IMG/VR virus record: IMGVR_UViG_3300048813_000098
Coordinates: 1 to 24,022 of that record
Length of the DNA: 24,022 bases
Source: a virus
Reading direction: 5' to 3' (one strand)
The position numbers and the translations under genes were made by a program. The notes under the pieces were generated by a model. That model was not told where the DNA came from and did not search any database. It saw nothing but the letters and a program-made list of their open reading frames with translations. Below are positions 9,459 to 17,878 of this stretch, in pieces; positions within the stretch are counted from its first letter, which is position 1, and every line of letters starts with the position of its first letter.

Positions 9459-9677
9459 ATGTTAACAGACGCACAAAAAGCCCAAGTACGATTAATGATC
9501 ACTAGAAGGCCCGATCCCACCTATATGGCCCAACTCGCGGCCAGCGATACCTTTGCCTTAAGTGAATTGGCGACGTTTCTTCCTAAAGCGATTGCTCAAG
9601 CCACTGCACTCCAAACAAATCTGACCCTCAATCAAACTGAAATAGCAGCCACATTGGTCATTCTACAGGCATCCTAA
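9459..9677 (+). CDS. 72-aa protein before the holin
   Basis: The frame is open from a TTG at 9438 inside the end of the fibre gene, but AAAAGGAG (9447-9454) points to the ATG at 9459. The product (MLTDAQKAQVRLMITRRPDPTYMAQ...) has a charged helical N-terminus, then a Thr/Leu/Ala-rich part ending NQTEIAATLVILQAS. I see no membrane segment or known motif. It is coupled to the holin by TAATG. It could be a fibre-linked or lysis-timing protein; no function is assigned. Confidence 0.65.
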   Translation: MLTDAQKAQVRLMITRRPDPTYMAQLAASDTFALSELATFLPKAIAQATALQTNLTLNQTEIAATLVILQAS

Positions 9678-10075
9678 TGAAACGAGTAGTAGACTTTCTA
9701 TATGTGATAGCGCTTATATTCGCTCCCATACAGTCTACAGTGCTGTCTGTGATGGTGATGACGTTAGTCGACCTGATAACAGGTCTCCTGGCTGCGCGAA
9801 AGCGTGGCGAGGCCGTTACGTCGCTGGGGCTACGTCGCACTGTCACCAAACTGATGGTCTATGAACTACTCGTATGTCTCGCCTTCATCACAGAAATGTA
9901 CCTAACAGGCCCTATGGTGCCCGTGGTGAAGATATTTGCAGGGTTTATAGGGCTGACTGAGCTAAAGAGTGTTATGGAGAACCTAGAGACCTTGACAGGC
10001 ATGCCGCTCATTAAGACACTCATCGACAAATTGACCAATGTTGAGAAAACCCACGATGACCCCCCATCACCTTAA
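9677..10075 (+). CDS. holin, phage_holin_4 (phi-LC3/TcdE-like) type
   Basis: 132 aa starting on TAATG. Two to three membrane segments lie in the first about 95 residues: about 7-37 (LYVIALIFAPIQSTVLSVMVMTLVDLITGLLA) and about 60-95. The motif V(D)LITGLLAARKRGEAVTSLGLRRTV, a membrane helix ending in an Asp-x-x-Thr-Gly stretch followed by a basic Lys/Arg loop, is characteristic of the TcdE/phage_holin_4 family. The C-terminal tail is hydrophilic. Holins form lesions in the inner membrane that release the endolysin. The next gene, an endolysin without a signal peptide, overlaps its 3' end, which fits a classic holin-endolysin cassette. Confidence 0.85.
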   Translation: MKRVVDFLYVIALIFAPIQSTVLSVMVMTLVDLITGLLAARKRGEAVTSLGLRRTVTKLMVYELLVCLAFITEMYLTGPMVPVVKIFAGFIGLTELKSVMENLETLTGMPLIKTLIDKLTNVEKTHDDPPSP

Positions 10076-10493
10076 CACCGGCAAATGTGAGCGATGTGCG
10101 CTCATCTTCTCACGATACCCCGGCTTTAATAGAGACCTACAGGTATGGTTTGAGACCTTCCAGGTAGCAAATCCCACGGCCCACATAAGCTGTGCAGGGC
10201 GTGGAAAGGCCGACCAAGAAGCCTGCTTTCTCGCCCACACGAGTAATGCTCATTATGGTCAGAGTGCACACAACTATAATCTAGCCATTGATATATTTAG
10301 GCTTACCAATAGCGTCGATGGGACACCTAAAGCAGATTATGATAGAAGATGGTTTAGTGAGTTTGTGGGACCGGCTGTGGCCTCGGCGACGATAGGATTG
10401 GATTGGTTTGGGGCAGCGGGTAGCCCCTATTATGAACTCCCGCATGTACAAATATCGAACTGGAAAGACCTTGGCTATCCGCTTGTCGAATAG
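10056..10493 (+). CDS. endolysin, M15 family L-Ala-D-Glu/D-Ala-D-Ala peptidase
   Basis: The motif SAHNYNLAIDIF gives two zinc ligands, His72 and Asp79 (family signature SxHxxxxAxD), and ELPHVQI supplies the third, His130. The length of 145 aa fits small single-domain M15C phage lysins that cut peptidoglycan stem peptides. There is no signal peptide or wall-binding domain, so release depends on the holin. Two starts are possible: ATG 10038 has no clear Shine-Dalgarno, while ATG 10056 has a weak GAGAAA seven bases upstream and is preferred. Both overlap the holin's end. It is the last gene of the plus-strand late operon in this window. Confidence 0.85.
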   Translation: MTPHHLNTGKCERCALIFSRYPGFNRDLQVWFETFQVANPTAHISCAGRGKADQEACFLAHTSNAHYGQSAHNYNLAIDIFRLTNSVDGTPKADYDRRWFSEFVGPAVASATIGLDWFGAAGSPYYELPHVQISNWKDLGYPLVE

Positions 10494-10563: not shown

Positions 10564-10890
10564 TTAAAAATGAAGGACAACATAAGATGCCCCTATCCCA
10601 ATGCTATTGTAAATAATAGCTCGTCCTGTGTCTGAGGGAAACCCCTCCAAATACTTATAGAATAGACCAGCAAAGGTGGTAGTAGCGACAGCGAAGATCA
10701 CACTCTCTGTCTCTGTGCACCCAAGTCCTTTCCGCCAAGTTTGATAGGCAAAAGCACTAATGGCAAAACTCATCCCAAAATGTGCACTAAAGTGGAGGAG
10801 GTCTGCATCATCTGCCTTGGCACAGTGCCCCACAGCAAGGAGCAGGGCAATGGTCATGACAATCAGTAAATGTTTCATATCCTTACTCAT
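10564..10890 (-). CDS. exported multi-pass membrane protein (108 aa)
   Basis: The N-terminus has a signal-like hydrophobic stretch (HLLIVMTIALLLAVGHCAKA) followed by LLHFSAHFGMSFAISAFAYQTW, then further membrane segments (SVIFAVATTTFAGLFYKYLEG and AIIYNSIGIGASYVVL). The pattern of a helix with spaced His, then an A-x-x-T-x-x-x-G-x-x-Y/K-E segment, then D-x-x-x-x-x-x-N-x-x-G, recalls small bacterial periplasmic or membrane proteins such as DUF2279. That resemblance is from memory and weak. ATG 10890 overlaps the upstream gene by eight bases; an internal ATG at 10878 is an alternative. It is the last gene of the minus operon. Confidence 0.6.
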   Translation of the reverse strand: MSKDMKHLLIVMTIALLLAVGHCAKADDADLLHFSAHFGMSFAISAFAYQTWRKGLGCTETESVIFAVATTTFAGLFYKYLEGFPSDTGRAIIYNSIGIGASYVVLHF

Positions 10891-11344
10891 CTGTCACGGC
10901 ACAATCTGCACCAATTGTGAAGGCACATGAACAATTAATCCCATCCGAGCTATAGGCACCAGGGGGTAGGATAGAGAGAAAGCCTCCATTTTGTGAGTAG
11001 ACTCCGTAGAGGTTGTTATTGATGCACAAGCCATACTCTGGGAAGGTTTGTGGATAGCTTGCTTCGCAAGCCCCGCACAACTCTATAGGCTGCCCTACAG
11101 TGCCATTAACTCCGGGGGGTCCTGGGGGTCCTATAGGCCCAACCACGCCCGTCGCTCCTTGGGGCCCTGTAGCCCCTGGGAGGGCTATTGGGGTGGGGAT
11201 CGGGTATGGGGTGCTCACCGGCGGGGTGAGTGTTGGGGAATTGTGGTTGGAACAGCTGGTAAGGGCTATGCAGACAAACCCGACAGCCGCAGTAGCTGCG
11301 ATACAAAGGGCCGTATAAGCAATGAATTCAAGTATATATCTCAT
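10883..11344 (-). CDS. collagen-like lipoprotein (153 aa)
   Basis: An N-terminal hydrophobic segment ends in a lipobox, L28-T-S-C31, predicting a lipid-anchored protein after signal peptidase II cleavage. It is followed by a Pro/Thr-rich spacer (about 36-56), then ten uninterrupted Gly-X-Y triplets at residues 57-86 (GATGPQGATGVVGPIGPPGP and on), the signature of a collagen-like triple helix. The C-terminal about 65 residues contain six Cys (90, 93, 107, 138, 140, 148), probably disulfide-bonded outside the cytoplasm. It could be an outer-spanin analogue, since Rz1 proteins are Pro-rich lipoproteins, or a superinfection-exclusion or surface protein. No family is recognised for the C-terminal domain. 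Confidence 0.75.
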   Translation of the reverse strand: MRYILEFIAYTALCIAATAAVGFVCIALTSCSNHNSPTLTPPVSTPYPIPTPIALPGATGPQGATGVVGPIGPPGPPGVNGTVGQPIELCGACEASYPQTFPEYGLCINNNLYGVYSQNGGFLSILPPGAYSSDGINCSCAFTIGADCAVTDE

Positions 11345-11731: not shown

Positions 11732-11992
11732 CTATTTTGTTGTTAATGCAATACCACCAATCAACCCACCTACCACCCCGGCTGCCACGTACCAGTACCA
11801 TGGCGTATCGGATTCATGTTCCGCGAGGTTCTGTTTAAGAACCTTGACCTCAGCCTTAAGATTCTCAATAGAAGCATCCTCTGCCTGTATCGTCAAATGA
11901 CAGGCATTGAGAATATCATCACAAGGCCCGGCGTGGGTATTGTTACAAAGTAGACATATTGTTAGAAAAATGATGATATAGTAACGTGTCAT
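11732..11992 (-). CDS. 86-aa exported protein with coiled coil and C-terminal membrane anchor
   Basis: AGGAGATT just before ATG 11992 fixes the start, and the ATG overlaps the upstream stop (ATGA). Residues 1-20 form a signal peptide (RYYIIIFLTICLLCNNTHA), with a likely signal peptidase I site after THA. A short Cys-containing helix follows (CDDILNACHLTIQ), then a predicted coiled coil (ENLKAEVKVLKQNLAEHE) and a C-terminal membrane segment (WYWYVAAGVVGGLIGGIALTTK). Signal peptide, periplasmic coiled coil and terminal helix together suggest a spanin-like or lysis-related protein. Phages often carry such proteins, but I cannot name the family. Confidence 0.7.
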   Translation of the reverse strand: MTRYYIIIFLTICLLCNNTHAGPCDDILNACHLTIQAEDASIENLKAEVKVLKQNLAEHESDTPWYWYVAAGVVGGLIGGIALTTK

Positions 11993-12213
11993 AATCTCCT
12001 CATCTTTGTTATAGCACTTTTCAGGATGATAAACCCTTCGGTGTTTGGGTCTTCTAATAAGCCATCGGAGACCCATGTTGCGAGGTAATAGGCCACCTTA
12101 TCCTCCCGTACCAGCCACCCAATCACTTCACATTGCATTGGCACCATGGCTTGGGCATTAAGGGTTGAATGATCTCTAAACTCAATCACCACTGGTCTAC
12201 CTAGCTTTGTCAT
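11989..12213 (-). CDS. 74-aa hypothetical protein
   Basis: ATG 12213 follows GAGGCCT and is preferred over an upstream in-frame ATG at 12264. The product (MTKLGRPVVIEFRDHSTLNAQ...CEVIGWLVREDKVAYYLATWVSDG) looks like a small beta barrel, with strands ending in an aromatic-rich pair. There is no membrane segment. Its 5' part overlaps the end of the upstream membrane protein gene by 17 bases, and its stop overlaps the next start. Unknown function. Confidence 0.65.
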   Translation of the reverse strand: MTKLGRPVVIEFRDHSTLNAQAMVPMQCEVIGWLVREDKVAYYLATWVSDGLLEDPNTEGFIILKSAITKMRRL

Positions 12214-14000: not shown

Positions 14001-14334
14001 TTTCCCCTCTGGTTTTGATTGTGTGGCATGCGGTGCACAACACCTGAAATCCGGACATGGGCACAAGTAGTCGCCGGGCAAATGTATTGAATCCAACGAA
14101 GCCTCTGGTAGTGGAGACAACGGGGTTGATGTGGTCAATTTTCTTATCTTTGTTACGTACTGTTTGGCTACCGCAAGCAGCGCACGCATAGATGCCATAG
14201 CCTCTTCTGGCAGCTTTTGCTGCCATGTTACGCCACGGCCACCTGTAGCTAGCTCTTCTAAGGGTCGCGATGACGAATTGCTTTCTGTACTTATCAATAT
14301 CTTCTTTGGTGTATTCATTCCAGTCCTTTTTCAT
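13966..14334 (-). CDS. HNH endonuclease (122 aa)
   Basis: Zinc-binding CAAC (Cys51, Cys54) and CTAC (Cys100, Cys103) pairs enclose the core KKIDHINPV (Asp67, His68) and end CHTIKTRGENERR, the usual ending of phage HNH nucleases. The basic N-terminus would contact DNA. The start overlaps the primase stop (ATGA), and its 3' end overlaps the next gene by 35 bases. It may be a free-standing homing-type nuclease inserted in the operon, or a nuclease with a packaging or recombination role. Its location among replication genes favours the former, but this is inference. Confidence 0.83.
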   Translation of the reverse strand: MKKDWNEYTKEDIDKYRKQFVIATLRRASYRWPWRNMAAKAARRGYGIYACAACGSQTVRNKDKKIDHINPVVSTTRGFVGFNTFARRLLVPMSGFQVLCTACHTIKTRGENERRKAYRSKA

Positions 14335-15086
14335 ATAAAGATGCTTCCCACTAACTTATCCAAATATGCTTCATCCTTTGGCATCTCGAAAGTCATATTA
14401 ACCTGCGCAATCCACCAACGTGCTTCCATATTGGAGACTCCTAGGTCACGCAATGCATAAGCAAGTCTCAACAGCTGTGGATGCCGTGCTCCATTGTTTG
14501 GCGCACTATTCATCATCACTCGCGGACAATCAAAAACACTCTGTCTTTGTCCCCCGGAATTCGGAATAGTTGGCATTTCTTGTTTCGTAAATGGGGGAAG
14601 TGTGAGACTACTTCCTCGAGCAGAACAGGCTTCCCGCTTTGTTCTCCCAGTACTGTCATGTACTGTCCCAGGGAGTCGGAATGGATGAAGGTGGGTGTAG
14701 ATGCATCTGTCCGCTTCAGGAATATTAGCTTCCGCCCATTGTCGATCCATTGCAGGAAGCAAGTGACTAGGATGAGCGTCACGACGCACACCAAAGTGAC
14801 CTCCTCTGCCTCCAGTGTCATACCCCACAAAGTCAACATTCATCCTCCTTAGTCTTTCTTCAACGGCTTCACAGGCGGTGTAATTATCAATGTCAAGCCA
14901 CAGCCTGTCGGTCCAGACAACACCTTTAAAACCCGTCGTAGTTCCTGCTTGTTGTAGCGCTTGGGCCGTCCCTGCATCAACTCCATAGAGCGATGCAAAA
15001 CCTGCATTTGGTAGTTCATTCCGAGATATAAAATTAGGCTTAGCCCCATAAGTTGGGCGAAGGCTATAAAGATGAAAAGTATCCAT
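14331..15086 (-). CDS. archaeo-eukaryotic-type primase / PrimPol-like protein (251 aa)
   Basis: WLDIDN (Asp65, Asp67) gives the metal-binding DxD of the AEP catalytic core. DTGGRGGHFGV (His97) fits the second AEP motif (s-x-H with a Gly-rich loop), and FRLPGTVHDSTGRTK fits the basic nucleotide-binding segment after the third motif. The C-terminal about 60 residues (HPQLLRLAYALRDLGVSNMEARWWIAQVN...) resemble a PriCT-type helical domain. The protein lacks a helicase domain. It presumably makes primers for the family A polymerase. ATG 15086 is used, with GGAGGAG about ten bases upstream; another ATG at 15091 opens a different frame. Confidence 0.75.
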   Translation of the reverse strand: MDTFHLYSLRPTYGAKPNFISRNELPNAGFASLYGVDAGTAQALQQAGTTTGFKGVVWTDRLWLDIDNYTACEAVEERLRRMNVDFVGYDTGGRGGHFGVRRDAHPSHLLPAMDRQWAEANIPEADRCIYTHLHPFRLPGTVHDSTGRTKREACSARGSSLTLPPFTKQEMPTIPNSGGQRQSVFDCPRVMMNSAPNNGARHPQLLRLAYALRDLGVSNMEARWWIAQVNMTFEMPKDEAYLDKLVGSIFI

Positions 15087-15087
15087 G

Positions 15088-15741
15088 TCATTTTGCTCCT
15101 CCCGGGGGTGTTATATTTGTAGAATACAACCCATCCATAACATTCTTAATCGGAATCGCATAGCCTACTGGCAACGGATAACTTGTTCTGACAATCAATG
15201 CAACAATATCGCCTTGTTTATTAAAGACACCGGCACCACTATCGCCTGGGATAATATTGCCGTTGAGATTGTACATTCCCTCAGTATCGAAGTATTTATA
15301 GATTAATGGAATCGTTTTCTGTTTAAAGTCTCCGCCTCCATAGACAACAGCAGCAAGAACTTCCTCATTGGCAATGGGGTCGAATGAGACTCCAAAGGCC
15401 ACTCGTGTCCTCGTTGGTACATTAAGTATTACAAAGTCATGATCTGTATCATTATCACCTAATACTTTAACACTAGCCAAATGCTTCTGGCCATCAGTGA
15501 AAATTACAGTAATGTCTTTCTCCAGGTGTCTTTCATGGTAGACACAATGTTTTGCGGTGGCTACCAGGTTAGGTAGCAAAATGAATCCGCTACAACTATG
15601 CCCATTGGCAGTAATGTGTACCATTGCTGAGAGGGAGCTAGGAATTTCATAACGTGGAAATCGCTCAGTCCCCGACAATGTGAGACTAATCCCAAACAAC
15701 ATCACTATTAAGATAATAATTGCTATGCCGACTCGTTTCAT
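15088..15741 (-). CDS. membrane-anchored trypsin-like serine protease (217 aa)
   Basis: The full chymotrypsin-fold triad is visible: ATAKHC (His65), DHDFVIL (Asp102) and GDSGAG (Ser168). Cys50 and Cys66 sit exactly where chymotrypsin has its Cys42-Cys58 disulfide around the His loop. An N-terminal hydrophobic segment (residues 4-22) acts as signal peptide or anchor, so the protease is probably in the periplasm, where the disulfide can form. It overlaps the polymerase gene (ATGA) and the primase start region, inside the replication operon. The substrate is unknown. Possible roles are cleavage of host envelope or secreted proteins, or phage maturation. Confidence 0.85.
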   Translation of the reverse strand: MKRVGIAIIILIVMLFGISLTLSGTERFPRYEIPSSLSAMVHITANGHSCSGFILLPNLVATAKHCVYHERHLEKDITVIFTDGQKHLASVKVLGDNDTDHDFVILNVPTRTRVAFGVSFDPIANEEVLAAVVYGGGDFKQKTIPLIYKYFDTEGMYNLNGNIIPGDSGAGVFNKQGDIVALIVRTSYPLPVGYAIPIKNVMDGLYSTNITPPGGAK

Positions 15742-17663
15742 TCGTCATTCCCTTTCAACCCAGCGAGGGTGGTAAATGTTTTGGTCTCTGCCTTAATCGT
15801 AACACAAAGGTCTAGGGTCTTATTGATGCTTTCAAGTGCCTCTTTGTACACCATCTTTGCAGTTTCCAGCTGTGCCACAGGTACTGCATTTGAGGTACTA
15901 TCATGGCAATCGAATAGAACAGGATGCATTTCCACACCTTTTTCTGCCGCAAGTCGGTAAATCTCAAGGACCCACAAAATGAGAACGTCATGCGCGCTGC
16001 TTTGTATGAAGCGATTAGAAAGATCCTTGTAATTTGGATTGGGTACACGAATAATACGTCCAATAACGTTTCTAAGATGCCCTTGCTCACGATTCAACTC
16101 CTTTAGTCTATAGTTCATTTCCGCGACTTTGCGGAACTTCTTCCAGTACGCTCTAACATAACTATCAGCTTCTTGGACCGTTGTAGGGGTGTTGTCCTTA
16201 GTAAGATTCCGAGCGACAGTATGGCCTGTTCCAGTGTACTGGACGGCCAGCTGTATAACCTTTGATATCTTTCGTTGCCGGGCGAATCTTTCTTTAATGG
16301 CTTTTGTGACTGGTATATTTGGATTGTAACCATCGTGTAACTCCTTATCGTTTGGGAACAGGGTTAGGGCTAAATCTAAATAGATATCCCCGAGGCCCTT
16401 ATTGAAGACTTTCAGTAACGCCGGGTCTTCCGAGTAATGCGCGGTGATCGTCGGTTCGATTGCTGATAAGTCAGTATGGAGACCGATATAGCCTGGATCA
16501 ACTTTGAAATGGCGCATAACACGCGATTCATCAAACGGAGCATTAAGGAGATAAGGTTTAAACCCAGAAAGACGATATGAGACAGTGCCGCAGATGTTAA
16601 ATCCCGGATGAATTCTCCCTTCTTTGATGTTGGTGAGATAGGGGCCTGTGAAGTTCGTCGTGAGTGTGTTCTTCGTTTCATATTCTAAATACTCCTTGGT
16701 AAATGGCTGTGGCATGCCTTTAATGCTGTCTCCATCAACTGCAGGGAGGCCAGACTCAGTGGTGTAGACAACAGGGTTATGGAGCTTACTGTAAAATAAT
16801 TCCCTTTTGTCCTTGTCACTATTAATATTCCACCGTTTCCACTCTTCTGGGTGAAGGAGGTAACGATCTTTGTTATATTGCCTTTGATACGCGGCAATGC
16901 GGCGGTCTGCCCAATCACTCTCAAGTTCACAAATCTCTTTAGCGAGAGACTGCAATACATTGTCTTTTGCTTTTGTAGCTTCTGCTTTAAGGGCATCATG
17001 TTCCTCCTGCAAACTCTGTGTATCAACCATAATACCACGAGCTGTATTATTTGCAAGGAGAATATTATACGCCATCATCTTTTCTAGCATCCACCAGTAA
17101 TCATATTGTATAAAAAAGGTACTGCACTTATTATATAGTTGTTCTGTAGACACTACATCAAGTTCTGCATATTTCGCTAGAACAGCTAGGTCTGCTAAGT
17201 AATGATCACCTTTTCTAAGATTACCACCTTTGGCTTTAATATGGGCTGCTAACTCAGTGTCGCCGCGAGAGGTCCACCCGAGAACCTCAACTTGAGCATC
17301 CTTTAAACTATAAGGGCGGGGCCCGGCTGGTGCAGCGGAAAGGTGCCACATCAGCCGGGTGCATGCGATCCATCGAGTTTGGATGCTGAAGAAAGAATCA
17401 AGCCATCCCTTGTCATAAGTAAAGTTGTGGCCAATGAGTTGTTGTTCGCTAAGGAATGTAGTGAGGGCAGTTTTGAGATCGGGATCTAATACTGACACAA
17501 AGATTTCATCGGTAAACACAGTAATGGGAATGTAAATAGATCGACCCTCATCGCACATCGCGATGCCCAATAGATGTTTTGGGTGTGTCTCAACATCGGC
17601 AATCACAATTGATCCACATTTATTTGCCCATTGCTCAAAGTTATGTAACGAAGTTACAATCAT
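15738..17663 (-). CDS. family A DNA polymerase with 3'-5' exonuclease (641 aa)
   Basis: The exonuclease domain comes first: ADVET (Asp23, Glu25), LIGHNFTYD, and KYAELD with Tyr-x3-Asp. The polymerase domain has motif A TDLSAIEPTITAHYS, motif B RKISKVIQLAVQYTGTG and motif C FDCHDST. There is no 5'-3' exonuclease domain, as in T7-type phage polymerases. In motif B the residue matching E. coli Phe762 is Leu472. Motif A has Thr in place of the usual Arg after the Glu, and motif C reads HDS rather than HDE. The enzyme replicates the phage DNA. It overlaps the genes on both sides by four bases. Confidence 0.93.
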   Translation of the reverse strand: MIVTSLHNFEQWANKCGSIVIADVETHPKHLLGIAMCDEGRSIYIPITVFTDEIFVSVLDPDLKTALTTFLSEQQLIGHNFTYDKGWLDSFFSIQTRWIACTRLMWHLSAAPAGPRPYSLKDAQVEVLGWTSRGDTELAAHIKAKGGNLRKGDHYLADLAVLAKYAELDVVSTEQLYNKCSTFFIQYDYWWMLEKMMAYNILLANNTARGIMVDTQSLQEEHDALKAEATKAKDNVLQSLAKEICELESDWADRRIAAYQRQYNKDRYLLHPEEWKRWNINSDKDKRELFYSKLHNPVVYTTESGLPAVDGDSIKGMPQPFTKEYLEYETKNTLTTNFTGPYLTNIKEGRIHPGFNICGTVSYRLSGFKPYLLNAPFDESRVMRHFKVDPGYIGLHTDLSAIEPTITAHYSEDPALLKVFNKGLGDIYLDLALTLFPNDKELHDGYNPNIPVTKAIKERFARQRKISKVIQLAVQYTGTGHTVARNLTKDNTPTTVQEADSYVRAYWKKFRKVAEMNYRLKELNREQGHLRNVIGRIIRVPNPNYKDLSNRFIQSSAHDVLILWVLEIYRLAAEKGVEMHPVLFDCHDSTSNAVPVAQLETAKMVYKEALESINKTLDLCVTIKAETKTFTTLAGLKGNDE

Positions 17664-17878
17664 ACTTCTTTGGTCACCAAAGTATCTAAGGAACGTTTTG
17701 CAAAAGCCACGGGATTTACAACAGCCCCAGTACTGATGTCGATCAATGCTTTCATTGCTTTGTCAAGTCGGTGTTCTAACTCTATGCGTTCAGCACGCAT
17801 ATCAACTATTAATGCTGCTGCATTAGTTAGTACATCTTTCAGACGTAATGCTTGTTCTTTAGTGAAAGTGATATCCAT
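17660..17878 (-). CDS. 72-aa helical protein upstream of the polymerase
   Basis: TTAGGAGGACAT leads directly to ATG 17878. The product is mostly helical, with a possible short coiled coil (ALIVDMRAERIELEHRLDKAMKALIDI). It overlaps the polymerase start by four bases, so the two are coupled. Just upstream in the RNA there is a strong hairpin (17897-17931). A role in polymerase expression or as a small partner is possible; no known family is recognised. Confidence 0.7.
   Translation of the reverse strand: MDITFTKEQALRLKDVLTNAAALIVDMRAERIELEHRLDKAMKALIDISTGAVVNPVAFAKRSLDTLVTKEV

Follow-up and report, generated by a model that had tools for sequence, protein, structure and literature searches.

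The window analysed here is a virus record of 24,022 bases in its entirety. On its minus strand, a gene for a trypsin-like protein lies between the gene for a family A DNA polymerase (polA) and that for a primase-like protein of the prim-pol type (Table 1), which is the placement given in a first-pass annotation made from the sequence alone. The same annotation held that the gene overlaps both of its neighbours. This is true for polA, with which it shares 4 bases (ATGA, 15741-15738), but not for the primase gene, which is separated from the protease stop codon by a gap of 1 base. The stop codon does overlap, again by 4 bases in an ATGA, the start of an open reading frame (ORF) nested out of frame within the primase gene. 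Judging from the gene overlap, translation probably yields the protease along with the replication proteins.

Table 1. Genes and features at the locus and in related or compared phages. Positions without a prefix are those of the window.
Feature	Position	Strand	Evidence or remark
Anchored trypsin-like (chymotrypsin-fold) serine protease, 217 aa	15088-15741	minus (15741 to 15088)	
Hydrophobic signal anchor, residues 4-22 after MKR	15676-15732	minus	Kyte-Doolittle mean 2.9 over 19 residues; AF2 helix 2-22
Cys50, putative partner of Cys66 (chymotrypsin Cys42-Cys58 type)	15592-15594	minus	kept in L112 and L120
Predicted catalytic His65 (15547-15549) and Cys66 (15544-15546)	15544-15549	minus	alignment, sequence
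Predicted catalytic Asp102, in HDFVIL	15436-15438	minus	alignment, sequence
Predicted catalytic Ser168, in PGDSG	15238-15240	minus	alignment, sequence
Family A DNA polymerase (polA), upstream neighbour	15738-17663	minus	PF00476, E 3e-33; ATGA overlap with protease
Primase-like (prim-pol type) protein, downstream neighbour	14331-15086	minus	alignments; weak PriCT_1 match (0.0003) in the relative L002
Nested ORF1, 80 aa, N-terminal hydrophobic segment	14849-15091	minus, +1 frame of primase gene	codon-shuffle test; start overlaps protease stop (ATGA)
Nested ORF2, 107 aa, N-terminal hydrophobic segment	14516-14839	minus, +1 frame of primase gene	codon-shuffle test
Signal-coiled coil-C-terminal transmembrane (TM) protein	11732-12076	minus	conserved in 11 of 14 mapped records
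Lipoprotein-like protein with short collagen-like repeat	10883-11344	minus	
Endolysin	10038-10493		
Holin	9677-10075		
ClpP-like slot genes, examples	L002:3126-3935, L007:2524-3336, L010:7875-8705		
Matrixin/M57-like (HExxHxxGxxH) lipoprotein-like proteins, one subclade	L002:6463-6960, L007:5790-6344		
Anchored trypsin-like gene of G029	contig 16939-17706 (L128:14939-15706)		Trypsin_2, 3.5e-9; GNSGS
Secreted protein, 615 aa, of an unrelated phage contig	L143:4896-6743		trypsin-like domain, then thioredoxin-like segment

Fold, family and membrane anchor

Reading the residues from the translation, we found Cys50, His65, Cys66, Asp102 and Ser168 in place as annotated, with the triad in the order His65, Asp102, Ser168 and the Ser within a G-D-S-G motif. 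The protein matched the Pfam families Trypsin_2 (PF13365; E 4.5e-10, 40.9 bits against a cut-off of 27.6, profile positions 1-144 of 144) and Trypsin (PF00089; E 4.9e-9, above the curated cut-off), as well as the PHROG profile phrog_9683, labelled 'protease' (E 6.6e-7). A single-sequence AF2 prediction was poor (pLDDT 40) and was superseded by one from a three-sequence alignment, which is still weak (pLDDT 52, pTM 0.54). When this weak model was compared with the PDB by Foldseek, 349 matches were obtained at E≤0.001, and the best 50 of the 349 were all chymotrypsin-fold proteases (probability 1.00, E-values down to 1e-6, TM about 0.45). The Pfam matches and the fold search with this modest model thus agree with the chymotrypsin fold that had been annotated. 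Among the matches listed, the first places were taken by anchored or periplasmic proteases, namely Rv3671c (MarP), DegQ, HtrA and DegS. The closest PDB match by sequence was a glutamyl endopeptidase (1p3c), which covered residues 38-70 only (E 0.005). No PDZ domain was matched in Pfam, and the C-terminus lies about 50 residues past the catalytic Ser.

The annotated signal anchor is present too: the N-terminus carries KR followed by the hydrophobic stretch, and the helix modelled there has block pLDDT values of 80 and 68. Positive charges likewise precede the anchor in the slot proteins of L112 and L120. Judged from its sequence, the product is an S1-like chymotrypsin-fold serine protease with a membrane anchor and predicted catalytic activity, and it is not an HtrA or MarP protein. 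Its fold and family are already known.

Searches with the protease alone detected no relative among the viral contigs and no good match among GenBank phages (tblastn, one match at E 0.05). Serine proteases of family S1 from Vibrio and Shewanella plasmids were considered as a source and rejected at 23-25% identity, and an alignment that included them was too divergent to serve as a query. Pairs of very close DNA sequences differed too little for an estimate of dN/dS (0-2 synonymous and 0 nonsynonymous differences).

The slot between polA and primase in related phages

Relatives were gathered by scanning viral contigs with polA and primase, which defined a clade of about 23 distinct lineages; most of these contigs are fragments, so that the absence of a gene from them is no proof of its loss. 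A polA scan of genome contigs returned a single short and irrelevant match, in a Bacteroidetes MAG. Gene order, polA-(slot)-primase, is the same in nearly all of the approximately 23 lineages, and the alignment of the relatives shows that the motifs LWxDxD and IYTHLHxFRxPGTxH of the primase-like protein are conserved. The content of the slot varies: a trypsin-like gene is found in the window and two other lineages, a ClpP-like gene in nine, and neither in eleven. The first-pass annotation had asked whether the order polA-protease-primase is kept: two other lineages keep it with a trypsin-like gene, but most relatives have a ClpP-like exported protease or none at this place.

The two further trypsin-like slot proteins are those of L112 (= L116; 224 residues, Trypsin_2 5e-17) and L120 (= L125; 216 residues counted from an internal ATG, Trypsin_2 7e-11). 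Identity to the window protease is 31% for the former and 23% for the latter, and in the alignment of the three proteins Cys50, His65, Cys66, Asp102 and PGDSG are invariant. The first-pass annotation had named degraded triad residues in relatives at the same position, or a predicted fold other than that of chymotrypsin, as observations that would speak against it; we found the triad retained in both relatives, and the weak structural model matched chymotrypsin-fold proteases.

The nine lineages with ClpP-like proteins (L002, L007, L010, L011, L021, L022, L025, L042 and L043) encode slot proteins of 259-284 residues that bear a signal or anchor at the N-terminus, and the ClpP domain PF00574 was detected in those scanned. 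The Ser (in FSASM) and the His (in M-S/T-H-R/K-A) do not vary among them, and either D or E always occupies the position that aligns with ClpP Asp171 in the register of the PDB alignment. These proteins also have a conserved Cys-containing C-terminal extension, and their genes are situated in the replication operon and not among head genes. The fold of ClpP (S14) is crotonase-like and unrelated to that of chymotrypsin. No record of the clade was found to carry both folds: among 21 records scanned, PF00574 occurred in 15 and PF13365 above its cut-off in the window alone, and among 10 further records PF13365 occurred in five and PF00574 in none.

In the eleven lineages with neither protease, some slots are empty and others hold a small or unrelated ORF (e.g. 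in L115, L117, L122 and G019), which indicates that this place is open to genes other than those for proteases. The polA tree implies at least 5 changes among the three slot states (i.e. trypsin, ClpP-like, neither); the trypsin lineages do not form one clade, and the starred branches force at least 2 changes for trypsin. A direct replacement of the ClpP gene by trypsin is not claimed, because the backbone of this tree is unresolved. Since most relatives have an exported protease of a different fold, or none, in the slot, the trypsin gene is accessory and does not belong to the core of the replication operon. Judging from the sequences, the slot has repeatedly received exported serine proteases, which belong to two unrelated folds.

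Nested reading frames and other exported proteases

Nested ORF1 has an uninterrupted frame in 20 of 22 lineages, and nested ORF2 was found in about 15; neither has a family match. When the codons of the primase gene were shuffled synonymously, an open frame together with hydrophobicity was almost never recovered for most lineages. For the window alone, the result was not significant for ORF1 (P 0.10) and significant for ORF2 (0 of 500). Both ORFs therefore probably encode small dual-coded membrane proteins that are under constraint.

At its 3' end, the replication operon encodes envelope proteins (the signal-coiled coil-TM protein and lipoproteins) and converges on the holin and endolysin genes, both of which are far from the protease gene. 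The coiled coil protein and the nearby lipoprotein-like protein may form a spanin-like pair, a possibility suggested by the lack of room for spanin genes after the endolysin gene. In the L002-like phages, the end of the operon encodes a lipoprotein-like protein with a matrixin/M57-type motif, HEIGHCVGLRH (Peptidase_M57, 8e-6).

Exported trypsin-like proteins were also encountered elsewhere. The slot of G029 is empty, and an anchored trypsin-like gene in this phage directly precedes the gene for an M15 endolysin, i.e. in the lysis region; it is itself preceded by a gene for a 79-residue protein with a C-terminal hydrophobic stretch and no family match, possibly a holin. In L144, which belongs to a phage contig that is otherwise different, the gene for an exported trypsin-like protein lies near, and converges with, one that encodes a long polymerase-like protein. 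A weak PF13365 match in G004 (17 bits) was traced to a tail-fibre-like repeat protein and rejected as a protease. The 615-residue secreted protein of L143 (Table 1) is a separate observation.

Possible roles and known systems

On the basis of these data we consider it probable that the window gene encodes an accessory, anchored periplasmic endopeptidase that is produced alongside the replication proteins and cleaves host, or else phage, proteins in the envelope of the infected cell. Such a protein would be exported by the Sec system and remain in the membrane with its catalytic domain facing the periplasm, a compartment that would suit a disulfide between Cys50 and Cys66. The gene would be cargo in a slot that members of the clade fill with a trypsin-like or a ClpP-like exported protease, or leave without one, and its translation with polA and primase would place the protease at the time when these are made. 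By cleaving at least one protein of the envelope or periplasm, it would remodel the envelope. Position and export suggest a similar job for both folds. We tentatively propose, at somewhat less than even confidence, that the slot has a function as the place of an exported endopeptidase, that either of two unrelated folds can stand there for a single envelope task, and that proteolysis in the periplasm during replication constitutes an exclusion, counter-defence or lysis-preparing system.

As to what this task might be, one candidate is that the protease removes or damages an envelope protein on which competing phages rely, or else a host factor for envelope defence or stress. We give this role a chance that is not far from even, and it is favoured by the location among the replication genes and by the accessory distribution. 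The first-pass annotation had suggested a host envelope receptor, an exclusion factor or a secreted defence protein as candidate targets. In the specific form of superinfection exclusion, the anchored protease would degrade a protein of the outer membrane or periplasm without which later phages could not adsorb or bring in their DNA. This form is possible but by itself doubtful: export and the turnover of the slot are consistent with it and T4 Spackle provides a precedent, but a protease-based exclusion system was not found by a word search of the open-access literature. The same kind of search found neither an exported ClpP-like phage protein nor any account of a slot for exported phage proteases that two unrelated folds share. 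Spackle is described as an early periplasmic exclusion protein, but it acts as an inhibitor and is not a protease (PMC7677548).

The arrangement in G029, the run of envelope proteins at the operon end (in relatives including the matrixin-like lipoprotein), and the precedent of a phage-origin metzincin in Listeria (PMC8235301) favour help in lysis instead. A weakening of the envelope that aids lysis is a possible, if somewhat unlikely, role. More specifically, the protease might cut the ties between outer membrane, peptidoglycan and inner membrane, or proteins that control the holin, as an adjunct or stand-in for spanins; we regard this as unlikely, given that the window gene stands among replication genes, at a distance from holin and endolysin, and that many relatives do not have it.

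The processing of the phage's own membrane proteins is an improbable role. The product of nested ORF1, with its ATGA coupling to the protease gene and its presence in most lineages, would be a candidate substrate, as would the signal-coiled coil-TM protein. However, ORF1 is equally intact in lineages without a slot protease, and L120 has the trypsin gene but no nested ORF1, which leaves processing of these particular products quite improbable. We reserve only a small share for roles of any other kind.

Two further explanations carry very little weight. The phage might carry the gene as an anti-phage defence, with a protease like those of Avs1b, LmuA or RT-Protease systems, and weak matches to Avs1b, LmuA and RT-Protease XI were indeed obtained, but this is very unlikely, since the matches are limited to the trypsin domain (33 bits for Avs1b against a cut-off of 1500) and no STAND ATPase, SMC or reverse transcriptase partner was seen among the neighbouring genes scanned; these proteins are not known as membrane-anchored exported enzymes. 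That a head (capsid) maturation protease has been misplaced in the operon is scarcely credible in view of the export signals or anchors of both kinds of slot protein, the replication-operon position and the absence from 11 of 23 lineages: the ClpP-like proteins do score against head maturation protease families, but far under the NCBIfam cut-off (51 against 120 bits), and no head protease family was matched by the trypsin-like protein.

The phage proteases known so far mostly mature capsids. Here, an anchored envelope protease is encoded within a replication operon, and relatives have an exported protease of unrelated fold in its place. This points to selection for protein cleavage in the host envelope during infection, and raises the question of which envelope protein is cut and whether the infected cell is thereby protected, disarmed or readied for lysis.

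With respect to known systems, the periplasmic protease that we favour most resembles MarP, DegS and HtrA, its nearest counterparts in Foldseek and NCBIfam, in which an anchor likewise precedes a trypsin-like domain on the periplasmic side. It differs from them in having no PDZ domain and a single anchor helix, and its NCBIfam scores are far below the curated cut-offs (for MarP, NF033740, 24.8 bits against an equivalog cut-off of 250). The likeness to S1B-type glutamyl endopeptidases is confined to the His region and, unlike these, the window protease would not be freely secreted if its anchor stays uncleaved. The ClpP-type slot proteins share the Ser-His-Asp/Glu residues of ClpP and the ClpP-related head maturation proteases (S14), but differ from the known members in their export signals and C-terminal extension. 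In Listeria, the secreted metzincin Mtz and its TIMP-like partner Tim, the former of phage origin, sensitise cells to phage lysis (PMC8235301). Mtz is thus also a phage-derived secreted protease that acts at the envelope and raises lysis, but it is a metalloprotease of a Gram-positive host and has a partner lipoprotein. Lastly, PHROG 9683 matches the proteins of the window, L112, L120 and L144 over most of its profile (6.6e-7, 4.1e-6, 6.5e-7 and 1.6e-8, respectively), with the matches of L112 and L120 beginning at the N-terminal segment, and this phage protease family thereby gains a recurrent genomic home.
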